IMG/VR virus record: IMGVR_UViG_3300031602_000014
Location: 1 to 33,497 of that record
Length of the DNA: 33,497 bases
Source: a virus
Reading direction: 5' to 3' (one strand)
Below are positions 9,656 through 14,107 of this stretch, piece after piece. How positions within the stretch are numbered: position 1 is the stretch's first letter; each line of letters starts with the position of its first letter. The notes beneath the pieces are model-generated. The model had not been told where the DNA came from and made no database searches. It saw only the letters and a program-made list of their open reading frames with translations. The position numbers and the translations under genes are program-made.

Positions 9656-9951
9656 ACTATCGGATTGACATATACAAGCTCTACGCGCGCGTCCCGGTGA
9701 CAGTGTTCTATAAATATTTAGACGATGCGCTCAAAACCTACTGCGCCGAAACGCGCAAATGCCAGCCCGGTGAAACGGTCAAAATGGTGCTGCCGCAGAT
9801 TGAAAAATTGCAGCACCGCATTGACTGCTTAGAGGAAACGCAGCGCGAAATCGATTACATGAATGCTATCGAATGGGCGGCGCTCAGTGTAGAGGAAAAA
9901 ATATCGGCCATTCAAAAATCAGAAATACTCAGAGTGAAAAAATGCCCCTGA
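9652..9951 (+). CDS. Early-operon protein, unknown, with coiled-coil segment
   Basis: The 99-residue protein starts at an ATGA overlap with the preceding stop. Residues about 45-70 (VLPQIEKLQHRIDCLEETQREID) read as a coiled coil. It overlaps the helicase gene by 10 bases at its end. No family is recognised; a helicase partner is possible from position alone. Confidence 0.72.
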   Translation: MNYRIDIYKLYARVPVTVFYKYLDDALKTYCAETRKCQPGETVKMVLPQIEKLQHRIDCLEETQREIDYMNAIEWAALSVEEKISAIQKSEILRVKKCP

Positions 9952-11687
9952 CTTTATACCCGCATCAGGCGAAAGCCATCGCCAGCCTGTACACGTTTTT
10001 TCGCGGCAATCCGACCGGGCACCCCTGCCTAGTCGCGCCCACCGGATCGGGCAAGTCGCTCATTCAGGCTGAATTCATCAAGGGTGTGATCGAAAAATGG
10101 CCCAAACAGCGTGTCCTGTGCCTGACTCATGTGCGCGAATTGGTGGAACAGAACTATCAGGAAATGATAGGCCAATGGCCTGACGCCCCGGCAGGGATCG
10201 ACTGCGCGGCATTGAAACGCCGGGAACCGACCAGCCAGATATTGTTCGCCAGCGTGCAGTCAACGTATAAAAAGGCCGACGCCATCGGCCACTGTGATCT
10301 GATTTTCATCGACGAAGCGCACCTGTGCCCGGTCAAAACCAGTGCGGGAATGTATCGCACATTGATTGATGACCTACTGGTGATCAATCCAGCCCTGCGC
10401 GTCATCGGCATGACGGCCACCCCCTACAGGCTCGACAATGGATCGCTGACGTATTCCGAAAACGCTCTGTTCACTGACTTGATCCCAGACAAGGTGAACT
10501 GCATGGAAGTCTCCACGCTGGTCGATAAGGGGTATTTGTCAGCGCTGACCAATGAGGCCGTGCGGGTGCGATATGAGCTATCTAAGGTTGCTGTGCGCGG
10601 GGGTGATTATGTGCCCGGCGAACTGGAAAAGGTTGTCAATATCAGTGAGAAAAACACCAGCGCAAGCAAAGAAATAAATTCCCTCGGCGCCGCCCGAAAA
10701 TCATGGCTAGTGTTTGCGATCAACGTCGATCACGCACACAACATTTGTGCAGCCCTCACAGTGCAGGGCATAAATGCCAAGGTATTGACCGGGGAAACCC
10801 CCGCCAAACAGCGCGCCCAGTTAATTGAGGATTTCAAAACGCACAAAATCCGCGCGCTGGTCAATGTCAATTGCCTGACCACTGGATTCAACGCCAGAGG
10901 CGTCGACCTGATTGCGTTTATGCGGCCCACCAAATCGCCCGGCCTATATAGTCAGATGGCGGGGCGTGGTATGCGCCTATCACCAGAGACAGGCAAAACA
11001 GATTGCCTCGTTTTGGACTTTGCCGGGTTGATCGAAACGCATGGCCCGATCACGCAGATCAAGCCACCCCCGAATAAAGATGATCCCGATGGTGACGCTC
11101 CCGAAAAGGAATGCCCGGCCTGTTATATGCTCGTCAATCTAAGCGCGCGGGAGTGCCCGTATTGTCAGCACGTTTTTGAAAAGGAACCGGAAACCGGCGG
11201 CACGATTCTCAGCCAGACCGCCAGCACGATTGACATTATGGGCAAGAAACAGTCGACCGCGCAGCATCGCAGAGTCCACCGGATGAACTGCTATCTTCAC
11301 AAAAAGGAAGGCCAGCCGGCCAGCTTAAAAATCATATATTACGCGCTCGGCGGCGACCAGATTGCGACCGAATGGGTGTGCCTGTTTCACAGAGGGTATG
11401 CCAAGAAAAAAGCAATGGAATGGTGGGCCGATCACCTCCCTGGTGACAAGCAAAACCCGGCGCCCATCGGCATCGATGAGGCTCTGGCGCGCGCGAAACA
11501 GTGGGGCATTCGCCCGCTATATATAAACGTCGAGCCAGATGGCCGTTATATCAAGATCAACTACCGCGTCATGCCGACAAAACAGATGCGGAAATCTACG
11601 CTCGGATGCGTCACTGACGGCATTGGCGAAACTATAACGACGCGCCTTATGCGTCAAAACTCGGAGAAAGGGAAATCATGTGGATAA
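9942..11687 (+). CDS. SF2 DEAH-box helicase
   Basis: The protein is 581 residues from the ATG at 9942; an upstream extension in the same frame overlaps the previous gene and is not needed. Motifs in order: YPHQA Q-motif-like start, Walker A APTGSGKS at 32-39, DEAH at 124-127, MTATPYRLD (motif III) at 157-165, LTTGFNARGVD (motif V) near 312-322 and QMAGRGMR (motif VI) at 338-345. A zinc-binding pair CPAC/CPYC follows at 391-408. It is of the RecG/UvsW-like or restriction-helicase-like DEAD/DEAH group widespread in phages, probably acting on replication forks or recombination intermediates. The methyltransferase gene starts within its last 10 bases. Confidence 0.92.
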   Translation: MPLTLYPHQAKAIASLYTFFRGNPTGHPCLVAPTGSGKSLIQAEFIKGVIEKWPKQRVLCLTHVRELVEQNYQEMIGQWPDAPAGIDCAALKRREPTSQILFASVQSTYKKADAIGHCDLIFIDEAHLCPVKTSAGMYRTLIDDLLVINPALRVIGMTATPYRLDNGSLTYSENALFTDLIPDKVNCMEVSTLVDKGYLSALTNEAVRVRYELSKVAVRGGDYVPGELEKVVNISEKNTSASKEINSLGAARKSWLVFAINVDHAHNICAALTVQGINAKVLTGETPAKQRAQLIEDFKTHKIRALVNVNCLTTGFNARGVDLIAFMRPTKSPGLYSQMAGRGMRLSPETGKTDCLVLDFAGLIETHGPITQIKPPPNKDDPDGDAPEKECPACYMLVNLSARECPYCQHVFEKEPETGGTILSQTASTIDIMGKKQSTAQHRRVHRMNCYLHKKEGQPASLKIIYYALGGDQIATEWVCLFHRGYAKKKAMEWWADHLPGDKQNPAPIGIDEALARAKQWGIRPLYINVEPDGRYIKINYRVMPTKQMRKSTLGCVTDGIGETITTRLMRQNSEKGKSCG

Positions 11688-12550
11688 TACCGAACACACA
11701 CACACTGTACTCAGCCTTTGCACTGGATATGGTGGTATTGAACTCGGCCTCGGACTTGCAGGCGTTAAACATCGAACAGTCGCTTTTTGCGAGGTCGAAG
11801 CCTTCCAGTGCCAAAACTTGGTGGACAAGATGCAAGCGAACGTCATACCTCCAGCGCCTATTTGGACAAACCTTAAGTCCCTGCCAGTGGCGCCGTTTCG
11901 AAACAGAATTGACATCCTCACTGGCGGCTACCCATGCCAGCCATTTTCTGCCGCAGGAAAACGCGCAGGAAAAGATGACCCCCGACACTTGTGGCCCTAC
12001 ATCAGAGACATCATCAGATCAGTACGACCTGTTAGATGCTTCTTTGAAAACGTCGAAGGACACATCAGCCTCGGACTGCGAGAAGTCATTAGCGATTTGG
12101 AAAGCCTCGGTTATCGACCGGCGTGGGGCATATTTAGCGCGACTCTCTGCGGCGCGCCACATCAGAGAAAGCGAGTCTATATCATGGCCGACGCCACCGC
12201 TGGCTCTTGCAGCGCAGATGGGCACACCGGATTTCCGACAGTGGCCGACTCCCACGACTCAAGACAGCAACAAAGCGACCAAAAAAATGCGAGTCGATCA
12301 CCAGAACAATTTGACAGCGGTGGTGTTCAATCAGGAAATGCTACCAACACCAATCACGCGGGATCACAAAGGGGGTTACAAGACGGAATCGCTTATCAGA
12401 GCCGATGGCAAGAGCAGAGCATTCGACGCTCTGCCGAATGCGGCAATCGGGGGGGTGGGGGTGGAGAAGCACCCAGGGCACCTGAATCCTTCATGGGTGG
12501 AATGGCTGATGGGTATACCGCAGGGCTGGACTGCACTGATTGGGGATTAA
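11678..12550 (+). CDS. Overlapping +1-frame gene inside the cytosine methyltransferase, unknown protein
   Basis: This is a 290-codon frame starting at ATG 11678, two bases before the methyltransferase GTG and using the same AAAGGGA ribosome site. It runs through 85% of the methyltransferase gene in a different frame. The protein has repeated TP motifs (SWPTPPL, WPTPTTQDS, LPTPITRDHKGG) and a C-terminal LNPSWVEWLMGIPQGWT. Both are patterns I know from phage proteins encoded next to or over C5-cytosine methyltransferases. In the region 12180-12540 the methyltransferase frame is low-complexity and hydrophilic whereas this frame looks structured. That argues for real dual coding, but an accidental open frame conserved only through its partner cannot be excluded. 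Confidence 0.5.
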   Translation: MWIIPNTHTLYSAFALDMVVLNSASDLQALNIEQSLFARSKPSSAKTWWTRCKRTSYLQRLFGQTLSPCQWRRFETELTSSLAATHASHFLPQENAQEKMTPDTCGPTSETSSDQYDLLDASLKTSKDTSASDCEKSLAIWKASVIDRRGAYLARLSAARHIRESESISWPTPPLALAAQMGTPDFRQWPTPTTQDSNKATKKMRVDHQNNLTAVVFNQEMLPTPITRDHKGGYKTESLIRADGKSRAFDALPNAAIGGVGVEKHPGHLNPSWVEWLMGIPQGWTALIGD

Positions 12551-12705
12551 ACGAACCTGCCGACCGGGTTGTGCCGTTTTGCGAACACCGCGTTGACCGT
12601 ATCCGCAGCCTGGGCAACGGCGTCGTACCCGCCACCGCGTGTGACGCTTGGATCGTGCTGGATCGTGAGCTAAAAAAGCACGCCAAATCCTACCCCCGCA
12701 ACTGA
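11680..12705 (+). CDS. dcm: C5-cytosine DNA methyltransferase
   Basis: The 341-residue protein starts at GTG 11680, the first start before motif I. It shows the C5-methyltransferase series: motif I SLCTGYGGIELGL (12-24), motif IV GGYPCQPFSAAGKRAG (82-97, catalytic Cys86), motif VI ENVEGH (123-128), motif VIII QRKRVYI (162-168) and, near the C-terminus, RSLGNGVVPATA (motif X). The target recognition region (about 175-270) is hydrophilic and of low complexity, exactly where the overlapping +1 frame carries its best motifs. It probably methylates phage DNA against host restriction. It is the last early-operon gene and meets the integrase gene tail to tail with a 16-base overlap. The symbol is used in the broad family sense. 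Confidence 0.93.
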   Translation: MDNTEHTHTVLSLCTGYGGIELGLGLAGVKHRTVAFCEVEAFQCQNLVDKMQANVIPPAPIWTNLKSLPVAPFRNRIDILTGGYPCQPFSAAGKRAGKDDPRHLWPYIRDIIRSVRPVRCFFENVEGHISLGLREVISDLESLGYRPAWGIFSATLCGAPHQRKRVYIMADATAGSCSADGHTGFPTVADSHDSRQQQSDQKNASRSPEQFDSGGVQSGNATNTNHAGSQRGLQDGIAYQSRWQEQSIRRSAECGNRGGGGGEAPRAPESFMGGMADGYTAGLDCTDWGLNEPADRVVPFCEHRVDRIRSLGNGVVPATACDAWIVLDRELKKHAKSYPRN

Positions 12706-13907
12706 ACCTCCTGACGCAGATGGTCATCGGATAGATGGGCATAAACCTGCGTCATTTCGGCGGTTGAATGCGTCATCAATTTCTGCACCGTGAACAGCGA
12801 CGCCCCCTGCATCACCAGCCAACTGGCGAACGTGTGGCGCAGATCGTGAAACCGGAAATCCTGAATATCTGCGGCAGCCATCAGATTGCGCCACGCCGTT
12901 TTTACCGAATCCAATTGTTTGCCAGTGACGGGGGAGGGGAACACCAGCCCGTTGCCGTCCGTCTGCGCGCGCCAATCTTTTAAGACGGCCACAGCGTCAT
13001 TACGCAGCGGCAGCGTCACCGGCTTGACCGTTTTGCGCCGGGTTTTATTGATGACTTTTGTCACCTGGCCGCGTTCCAGATTGATGTGCGACCATTCCAG
13101 ACTGAACAGATCGCCCCGGCGCAGCCCTGTATGCAACGCCACCAGCACCAGCGGCATTAGATGGTCGGTATACTGCCCAGTCATGCACGGCAGACCACTG
13201 GCACGCATTCGCGTCTGGCGGGCATTGAGTGCAGCCACCAGTCGGGGGTATTCATCGTTCCGGGTCAGGAATCGCGGCGGCTTTTCGTCGGCGGTTTCAA
13301 GCTGCGCGGTGGTGCGTTTCAGCGTCACCCCCGCAAGCTGGTGGTGGGTGATGACCTTGTGCGTTTTTAGCGCCGTATTGAGGCACGCTTTTAATGCTGT
13401 GAATCTGCGCTGCACAGTAGTGAATGCCACTGGGCTGGGTTGTTTGGCAAGTTTAGCCCGCCATCGCTGGACATCCATTTCGCTGATGTCTGTCATTGGG
13501 GCGCCATAGAGATGACCGAAATTTGCGGCCAATAGTTTCAGCGTGCCATCGTGCGATGCGATGTTTTGCTGCGCGTATTCCGCATATTGACCCCGCACGT
13601 ACACCCCCAGTGTGGCCCGCTTTTCGCGCTTGGCGTCCCTTCCGGGATCGGCCCCGGCGTTCGCCTGACTTAGCACCTCCAACGCCTGTACTCGCGCCAT
13701 AGCCACTGTCATGGTGGGATATGTGCCCAGCTTTTTATTGTTCCTGCGCCCACCGGGAGGGGTGTACCGCACAGACCACGTTTTTCGGCCAGTGGGCGCT
13801 ATTCTAAGCACCAGCCCGATGACGCGTGAATCGCGCATTTCCCACTCTGTTGATCTGGGTGCCGCGTCTTTGATGTCCTGTTGATTCATGTGCTTGCTGC
13901 TTGCCAT
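12690..13907 (-). CDS. int: Tyrosine-recombinase integrase
   Basis: I take the ATG at 13907 (405 residues) with AGGGTG upstream; a longer frame from 14027 runs through the att-arm repeats and is unlikely to be translated. The C-terminal catalytic domain has HTGLRRGDL (catalytic Arg263), a central TRRKTVKP lysine-bearing hairpin, FHDLRHTFASWL (His354, Arg357), MTHSTAEMTQVYAHL (His380) and nucleophile Tyr389. The N-terminus has a DUF4102-like arm-binding region (RDSRVIGLVLRIAPTGRKTW...LGTYPTM), as in P4-type integrases, which commonly use the 3' ends of tRNA genes. The adjacent attP with a tRNA-Arg fragment agrees with this. It converges on the methyltransferase gene. Confidence 0.95.
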   Translation of the reverse strand: MASSKHMNQQDIKDAAPRSTEWEMRDSRVIGLVLRIAPTGRKTWSVRYTPPGGRRNNKKLGTYPTMTVAMARVQALEVLSQANAGADPGRDAKREKRATLGVYVRGQYAEYAQQNIASHDGTLKLLAANFGHLYGAPMTDISEMDVQRWRAKLAKQPSPVAFTTVQRRFTALKACLNTALKTHKVITHHQLAGVTLKRTTAQLETADEKPPRFLTRNDEYPRLVAALNARQTRMRASGLPCMTGQYTDHLMPLVLVALHTGLRRGDLFSLEWSHINLERGQVTKVINKTRRKTVKPVTLPLRNDAVAVLKDWRAQTDGNGLVFPSPVTGKQLDSVKTAWRNLMAAADIQDFRFHDLRHTFASWLVMQGASLFTVQKLMTHSTAEMTQVYAHLSDDHLRQEVQLRG

Positions 13908-13926
13908 ATTATTCACCCTGTTTGTT

Positions 13927-13956
13927 TGGGGCCAGTCTGGGGCCAATCTGGGGCCA
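13927..13956 (+). repeat. Left arm-type repeats of attP (three TGGGGCCA copies)
   Basis: TGGGGCCA occurs at 13927-13934, 13938-13945 and 13949-13956, an 11-bp period, immediately upstream of the integrase start. The same octamer recurs twice with the same period on the other side of the tRNA-like core (14214-14232). Iterated arm sites on both sides of a core are the hallmark of attP; they are inferred to bind the integrase N-terminal domain. Confidence 0.78.
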
Positions 13957-14107
13957 GATTCACTATAGCATGGGATAGCGTGAACGCGTAACAACTTGTA
14001 ACTATTAGACCGCACAGCCCTATACATACGCTATATATACAGCATATTATACGTCAGGCGCGCGGTATCAGTGGGCTGTCGGGGAATGTAGCAAACGCGG
14101 GGGCGCC

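Follow-up and report, generated by a model that had tools for sequence, protein, structure and literature searches.

Two overlapping reading frames under selection in phage cytosine methyltransferase genes: a probable split enzyme

RESULTS

Two reading frames overlap at the methyltransferase locus

The window, by which we mean the whole stretch of DNA analyzed, is an IMG/VR virus record (IMGVR_UViG_3300031602_000014) of 33,497 nucleotides. Downstream of a helicase gene (9873-11687; phrog_16, 2e-92) and upstream of a convergent integrase gene (12690-14027; phrog_1, 1.6e-70), two frames of the same strand overlap over about 870 bases. We refer to the C5-methyltransferase frame as alpha and to the second frame, which lies in the +1 frame relative to alpha, as beta. 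An earlier note, made from the letters alone, had described a 290-codon second frame inside the methyltransferase gene, and its coordinates, length and phase all agree with the open reading frame found here (11678-12550; 290 codons, 290 amino acids). Because beta is +1 to alpha, the wobble base of each alpha codon is the second codon base of beta. The features of the locus are as follows.

11663..11672, + strand: Shine-Dalgarno-like sequence GGAGAAAGGG for both starts, read from sequence; a Shine-Dalgarno sequence followed by ATGTGGAT recurs in many homologues
11678..11682, + strand: ATGTG double start, in which ATG 11678-11680 opens beta and GTG 11680-11682 opens alpha
11678..12550, + strand: beta, the overlapping +1 frame, with putative recognition modules and motif IX; phrog_1008; supported by shuffle and substitution tests
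11680..12705, + strand: alpha, C5-methyltransferase catalytic subunit of 341 amino acids, with motifs I to VIII and X and without motif IX
11719..11736, + strand: alpha motif I, CTGYGG
11923..11949, + strand: alpha motif IV, GGYPCQPFS, with the catalytic Cys; PCQPFS columns invariant in 44 alphas
11975..11995, + strand: possible internal beta start (ATG 11975, MTPDTCG) behind AGGAAAAG; no evidence of use
12043..12060, + strand: alpha motif VI, FENVEG
12157..12183, + strand: alpha motif VIII, PHQRKRVYI
12182..12238, + strand: putative beta recognition module 1, SWPTPP...
12239..12340, + strand: putative beta recognition module 2, QWPTPTTQDSNKATKK...; modules of this type also seen elsewhere
12341..12481, + strand: putative beta recognition module 3, LPTPITRDHKGGYK...; other loci have modules of similar type
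12482..12529, + strand: putative beta motif IX, LNPSWVEWLMGIPQGW; in frame with motif X in loci L025 and L027, and also in actinophage enzymes
12604..12630, + strand: alpha motif X, RSLGNGVVP; its L, G and N invariant in 44 alphas

The start region is conserved. Half of the distinct loci (90 of 180) begin with [ATG]TGTGG, and among these 90, a Shine-Dalgarno-like sequence precedes the start in 60 and ATGTG is followed by GAT in 58. The proposal that a single ribosome site serves both frames therefore holds as a conserved arrangement, with the two products themselves unshown. In other lineages, beta opens within alpha, and in phage N15 an apparent beta start lies behind GGGAGG. As some overlap loci lack a coincident start, initiation of both frames at one site cannot hold for all of them. 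Initiation at the internal ATG at 11975 would leave a beta core of 191 amino acids.

Alpha is a catalytic chain without motif IX

C5-methyltransferases carry motifs I to VIII and X in a large domain and the target recognition domain (TRD) and motif IX in a small domain (PMC3404938). Alpha matched PF00145 (2.4e-30; 106.5 bits versus a cutoff of 22) over only profile positions 2-164 of 324. The PCQ of motif IV, the ENV of motif VI and the QxRxR of motif VIII were all located in alpha, as expected of a member of the C5 family, and neither motif IX nor a TRD was found on the alpha chain. The motif IX pattern was likewise absent from all 45 alphas listed, out of 82 representatives, and from nine overlap-type alphas of whole genomes; it was present in some, not all, of the controls, and motif IX was visible in most rows of a control alignment. 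An intact C-terminal motif had been claimed for the methyltransferase frame, and this is motif X, with motif IX missing there.

AlphaFold2 modeled most of alpha residues 11-175 with a pLDDT above 90 and the motif X helix with high confidence, and residues 180-310 were mostly below 50 (180-264 and 272-310). When the alpha model was used in a Foldseek search, M.HaeIII, M.HhaI, Dnmt2 and DNMT1 matched over about 170 columns. We conclude from the predicted structure that alpha is the large domain of a C5-methyltransferase without its small domain, and that the gap is predicted to be disordered. The low-complexity stretch that had been taken for the recognition region of alpha is probably not one; recognition seems to lie in the beta frame.

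The second frame exceeds what alpha alone would produce

A set of 261 sequences was assembled by three kinds of search, namely, for beta in viral contigs, for beta in bacterial genomes and for alpha alone in viral contigs. The alpha-only set was chosen by methyltransferase patterns alone and is unbiased for beta. Both frames were present in all 261 loci, in the same +1 phase in 260, and the sole exception, L078, consists of two partial copies. In the methyltransferase domain of the window, the longest +1 run was 293 codons compared to a mean of 153 in synonymous shuffles, and none of 200 shuffles produced a run as long; the +2 frame was ordinary (58 versus 62 codons in shuffles, p 0.57). Across 57 distinct alpha-chosen loci, every +1 frame exceeded its synonymous shuffles (p <= 0.05; mean 317 codons versus 119), and the +2 frame was again ordinary.

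C5-methyltransferases from the same bacterial genomes served as controls. Those with a beta match showed the +1 excess, whereas those without a beta match did not, and not one of 15 such controls lacking a match was free of +1 stops between PCQ and motif VIII. In the overlap loci, 99% had no +1 stop in that interval, compared to 27% expected. Homologues keep the beta frame open, and the outcome that would have refuted a functional second frame, alternate-frame stops in homologues, was not obtained. Moreover, a beta profile scored 375 bits on the real frame of the window and at most 101 bits on its shuffles, the window being itself a row of the profile. At every locus tested, including those outside the profile, the real frame scored above its own ten shuffles. 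We note that synonymous shuffles nonetheless retained a mean of about 45 to 60 bits, and thus, part of the similarity among betas is a shadow of alpha.

Both frames are under selection

Substitutions were compared in pairs that are independent at the tips only, without a model of deeper kinship, and the values are counts rather than a fitted dual-frame model. In 91 pairs sharing no sequence, four-fold alpha sites differed at 0.25 inside the overlap and 0.45 outside it, so that the normal synonymous variation that would have argued against the second frame was absent. Up to motif VIII, alpha dominates, with identities of 0.826 for alpha and 0.677 for beta (62 pairs). After motif VIII, codon positions 1, 2 and 3 differed at 0.105, 0.033 and 0.033 in pairs 80-98% alike, and beta was the better conserved of the two (0.947 versus 0.880 for alpha). 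Alpha also stays open there, as 89% of loci had no alpha stop after motif VIII compared to about 3% of beta-codon shuffles. A further possible refutation, that database hits occur only in the overlap and show no independent constraint, was met in its first part, as hits are almost only in the overlap, but failed in its second, as independent constraint is clear. We conclude from the shuffles, the wobble substitutions and the same-genome controls that selection acts on both frames and that past motif VIII beta is the dominant one. The shuffle tests, the openness of homologues and the substitution counts bear out the earlier note in its claim that both frames carry meaning.

Beta carries tandem modules and a motif IX-like tail

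By profile, beta is a member of phrog_1008 (8.3e-22, residues 76-286); Pfam, NCBIfam and PADLOC returned no match for beta, and a PDB sequence search gave one chance-level match only (E 0.23). AlphaFold2 of beta alone, run with 53 sequences and with annotated phage records left out, gave a pLDDT of 59 and a pTM of 0.27. Because this lone model was poor, no fold search was made with beta. A component that folds against its partner could well give such a model; we do not count this as evidence.

The first half of beta has no clear counterpart in ordinary methyltransferases. It is followed by [W]PTP segments with a median length of 41 amino acids, mostly two to four per protein, and then by a tail with the consensus LNPxWVEWLMGxPxGWT. 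Modules were counted by pattern in 201 betas, and 568 segments were cut and compared. Between loci with alphas under 50% identical, 718 module pairs were at least 60% identical over at least 25 amino acids, and 367 of the 718 stood at different ranks from motif IX. For example, WPTPTVHGNYN..GDGLATAV is found in both L077 and L235, whose modules are 89% identical and whose alphas are 29% identical. These counts are of pairs, many of them related, and have no null model behind them; a single BLAST segment supplied each alpha identity. Recurrence of modules with distant alphas, often reordered, suggests from sequence comparison that the modules are exchangeable recognition cassettes, the targets of which are not known.

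The tail shares its spacing with motif IX, in that canonical LTPRECARLMGFP and the LNPxWVEWLMGFP of beta are spaced alike. When beta was aligned with ordinary C5-methyltransferases by hhalign, the best local match fell exactly at motif IX but was not significant (19 columns, E 0.04, probability 1.3%).

Relatives join the frames differently

In L025 and L027, both IMG/VR contigs, alpha stops after motif VIII, and the modules, LNPDWVEQLMGLP and RxDRLRLLGNGVVP follow one another in the beta frame; Pfam found no match on the chains of these two loci that hold motifs IX and X. Motifs IX and X also share a second chain in mycobacteriophages Chupacabra and Empress. In the actinophage enzymes L316, L317 and L318, motifs I to VIII, an IX-like segment and motif X lie in one frame, which in L316 also holds LPTP modules, and the beta profile finds the IX-like segments of the three at E values of 3e-11, 1e-7 and 2e-9, respectively. 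Because relatives join an IX-like segment in frame to motif X, we infer that the beta tail stands in for motif IX. In an alpha tree, 79 rows grouped with 100/98 support, including all overlap, AquI-type and actinophage rows. Two rows labeled canonical fall within the group, and the number of origins of the split does not follow from the tree.

Other arrangements were also observed. An additional +1 frame in L316, L317 and L318 matches the initial portion of beta at 53 to 121 bits, which implies that the frame-joining point differs between lineages. In L047, alpha seems to be interrupted past motif VIII, a separate short open reading frame holds motif X, and beta is open for 468 codons. In L169, one open reading frame runs from motifs I to VIII into the beta tail, leaving motif X in a different frame; this could be either a frameshifted copy or a natural variant. 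Dunaliella viridis virus SI2 (L319, 1820-2224) has a short remnant in which the N terminus runs directly into the motif X end, while the other frame remains open across the beta tail; this looks like an internal deletion. On the minus strand of L344, an adenine-methyltransferase-like frame reaches the alpha/beta tail, with motifs IX and X in two frames, and the arrangement looks like a recombination joint.

The overlap is widespread

The overlap was read in Escherichia coli phages N15, K1ind2, Bas72 and Delraymugoa, in Paenibacillus phage Jacopo, Acinetobacter phage ABMM1, Synechococcus phage JY39 and cyanophage Cy-LDV1, and in a Methanomethylovorans plasmid. Its range thus takes in E. coli phages (N15, Kagunavirus and Krischvirus), Paenibacillus, cyanobacterial and Acinetobacter phages, prophages of many bacterial phyla and an archaeal plasmid. 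Searches of genomes from the classes of Pseudomonas and Bradyrhizobium gave matches in 15 of 274 and 14 of 289, respectively. Of the 38 resulting loci, 32 overlap in phase 1, 4 have no match to the A5 profile and 2 are beta-like tails without alpha; put differently, 32 of the 34 genome loci with a beta-type A5-profile match overlap in the +1 phase. We conclude that the arrangement, with both frames selected, occurs in hundreds of phages and prophages.

DISCUSSION

Relation to known methyltransferases

The closest layout is that of M.EcoHK31I, a two-polypeptide C5-methyltransferase specific for YGGCCR, in which the larger subunit has motifs I to VIII and X and the smaller has motif IX (PMC3404938). 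Alpha of the window has the same motifs as the larger subunit and lacks the same one, and beta answers to the smaller, with the reservation that its direct similarity to an ordinary motif IX is weak. The gene for the small subunit of M.EcoHK31I lies within that for the large subunit but is read in a different frame, a layout that the overlap of beta with alpha matches. The two systems differ in that the predicted TRD of M.EcoHK31I was assigned to the large subunit, whereas the modules of the window appear in beta, and in that the window pair shares a start at ATGTG and belongs to genes of phages and prophages. By motif layout, without a comparison of sequence homology, the best explanation is that alpha and beta are built like M.EcoHK31I. 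M.AquI (CYCGRG) is also split, with the catalytic half on one chain and motif IX on the other (PMC3404938). Its layout, with both IX and X on beta, is met by L025, L027 and Chupacabra gp76/gp75 but not by the window, where motif X is on alpha.

An overlapping +1 pair was already annotated as alpha and beta subunits of a C5-methyltransferase in Streptococcus phage MM1 1998 (DQ113772). Unlike alpha of the window, MM1 alpha keeps its own motif IX, and MM1 beta (141 amino acids, ending SLSDILEEEVDERYFLS) has neither WPTP modules nor LNPxWVEWLMG. MM1 (L325, 1501-2658 / 1652-2077) and L327 to L331 form a side case in which motif IX is kept in alpha, yet a +1 open reading frame is conserved. That frame spans 141-189 codons (shuffle p <= 0.003 in six of six), wobble differences are lower inside the overlap, and 226 phage records match it. 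Its end, SLSDILEEEVDERYFLS, is similar to a segment usually found after motif VIII. Against the beta profile, the MM1 +1 frame scored 34.8, not above its own shuffles (best, 40.4).

Window beta belongs to phrog_1008, annotated as DNA methyltransferase, and the PHROG entry is silent on both the mechanism and the overlap. The multispecific C5-methyltransferases of SPbeta-type Bacillus phages carry, within one enzyme, a number of short recognition domains (about 40 amino acids each) that can be exchanged. They differ from the present pair in that these domains share a chain and a frame with the catalytic motifs, although sequences were not compared. In mycobacteriophage ShiLan, an HNH endonuclease lies out of frame in a methylase gene (PMC11855218). 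The likeness is a second frame inside a phage methylase gene, and the difference is that the HNH is a mobile insertion whereas beta spans the gene itself. Insertion of a homing endonuclease of the ShiLan type was rejected, both for that reason and because Pfam found no HNH domain in beta. The literature searched, which did not cover many journals, held no prior description of the overlap, its constraint or the modules. We conclude that split C5-methyltransferases and the overlapping alpha/beta annotation of MM1 were already known, and that the present variant is new and widespread.

A probable split enzyme with a proposed out-of-frame recognition subunit

We consider it highly probable that the two frames encode two subunits of one naturally split C5-methyltransferase, a catalytic alpha and a beta that supplies recognition and motif IX. 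Alpha would be the large catalytic domain, comprising the SAM-binding site, the PCQ loop, motifs I to VIII and the motif X helix, with a predicted disordered stretch in place of its small domain. Beta would bring the missing small domain, with tandem [W]PTP modules as target recognition cassettes and motif IX. From the one Shine-Dalgarno site, ribosomes would start at either the ATG of beta or the overlapping GTG of alpha, and the two products would form an active heterodimer, which would methylate cytosines of the phage DNA and presumably thereby evade host restriction. Double initiation, the heterodimer, module-encoded specificity and protection from restriction are all inferred, as there are no expression, mass spectrometry or activity data. 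The earlier suggestion of a methyltransferase and its specificity partner thus fits the missing motif IX and the relatives with IX and X in frame, but translation and interaction are unshown.

With less assurance, though we lean toward it, beta may be an out-of-frame cassette array within the catalytic gene, swapped by recombination to change the sites methylated, with the alpha frame kept open there only as a disordered linker. If alpha is kept only as a linker, one start would yield a catalyst plus an interchangeable, possibly multispecific, recognition subunit.

One alternative is that ribosomes leave the alpha frame for that of beta once past motif VIII, and perhaps return ahead of motif X, so that one full polypeptide is made. 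The motif order, with I to VIII in alpha, the modules and IX in beta and X in alpha, is indeed collinear with an ordinary C5-methyltransferase, and IX and X share one frame in some relatives. Such a scheme, however, needs two opposite shifts and accounts neither for the openness of alpha across the modules, far above that of shuffles (89% of loci without a stop versus about 3%), nor for that of beta upstream, where a shifted product would not need the beta frame. In the window, beta also begins at a start of its own, and in N15 it has an apparent start behind a Shine-Dalgarno sequence. We regard programmed frameshifting as improbable.

It also seems improbable, and slightly more so, that beta, although a genuine overlapping protein, is no enzyme subunit and serves a different purpose, for instance to block host restriction or to control the methyltransferase. 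The lack of a clear ordinary-methyltransferase counterpart for its first half would allow this, as would the streptococcal MM1-type enzymes, which have motif IX in alpha and still carry a conserved +1 frame. Alpha of the window, however, lacks motif IX and has a gap predicted to be disordered, relatives have an IX-like motif joined to X within a single frame, and beta is almost never found without alpha. Finally, the idea that the second frame is a functionless shadow of methyltransferase sequence and codon usage can draw on the bits retained by synonymous shuffles (about 45 to 60 on average) and on database matches being almost only in the overlap, but is effectively ruled out, as each locus tested beats its ten own shuffles, stops are avoided, wobble substitution is depressed and controls have no such frame.

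The two-subunit reading, if correct in that beta is the recognition subunit, would mean that many phage methyltransferases in databases are half enzymes. An annotated gene made from recoded DNA would then fail, since it would supply half an enzyme, and the cassettes would offer a way to read the sequence rules of phage DNA modification. The laboratory phages N15 and Bas72 carry the alpha/beta pair, which in N15 is gene 58. To our knowledge, few cases have been documented outside small viruses in which long same-strand overlaps show demonstrable constraint on both frames.

Most annotations give a single frame, or label both "DNA methyltransferase"; the K1ind2 and Paenibacillus records list both. 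In cyanophage Cy-LDV1 (L321, 1727-3001 / 2331-2885), only part of the beta frame is annotated as a methyltransferase, and the 425-codon alpha frame is unannotated.
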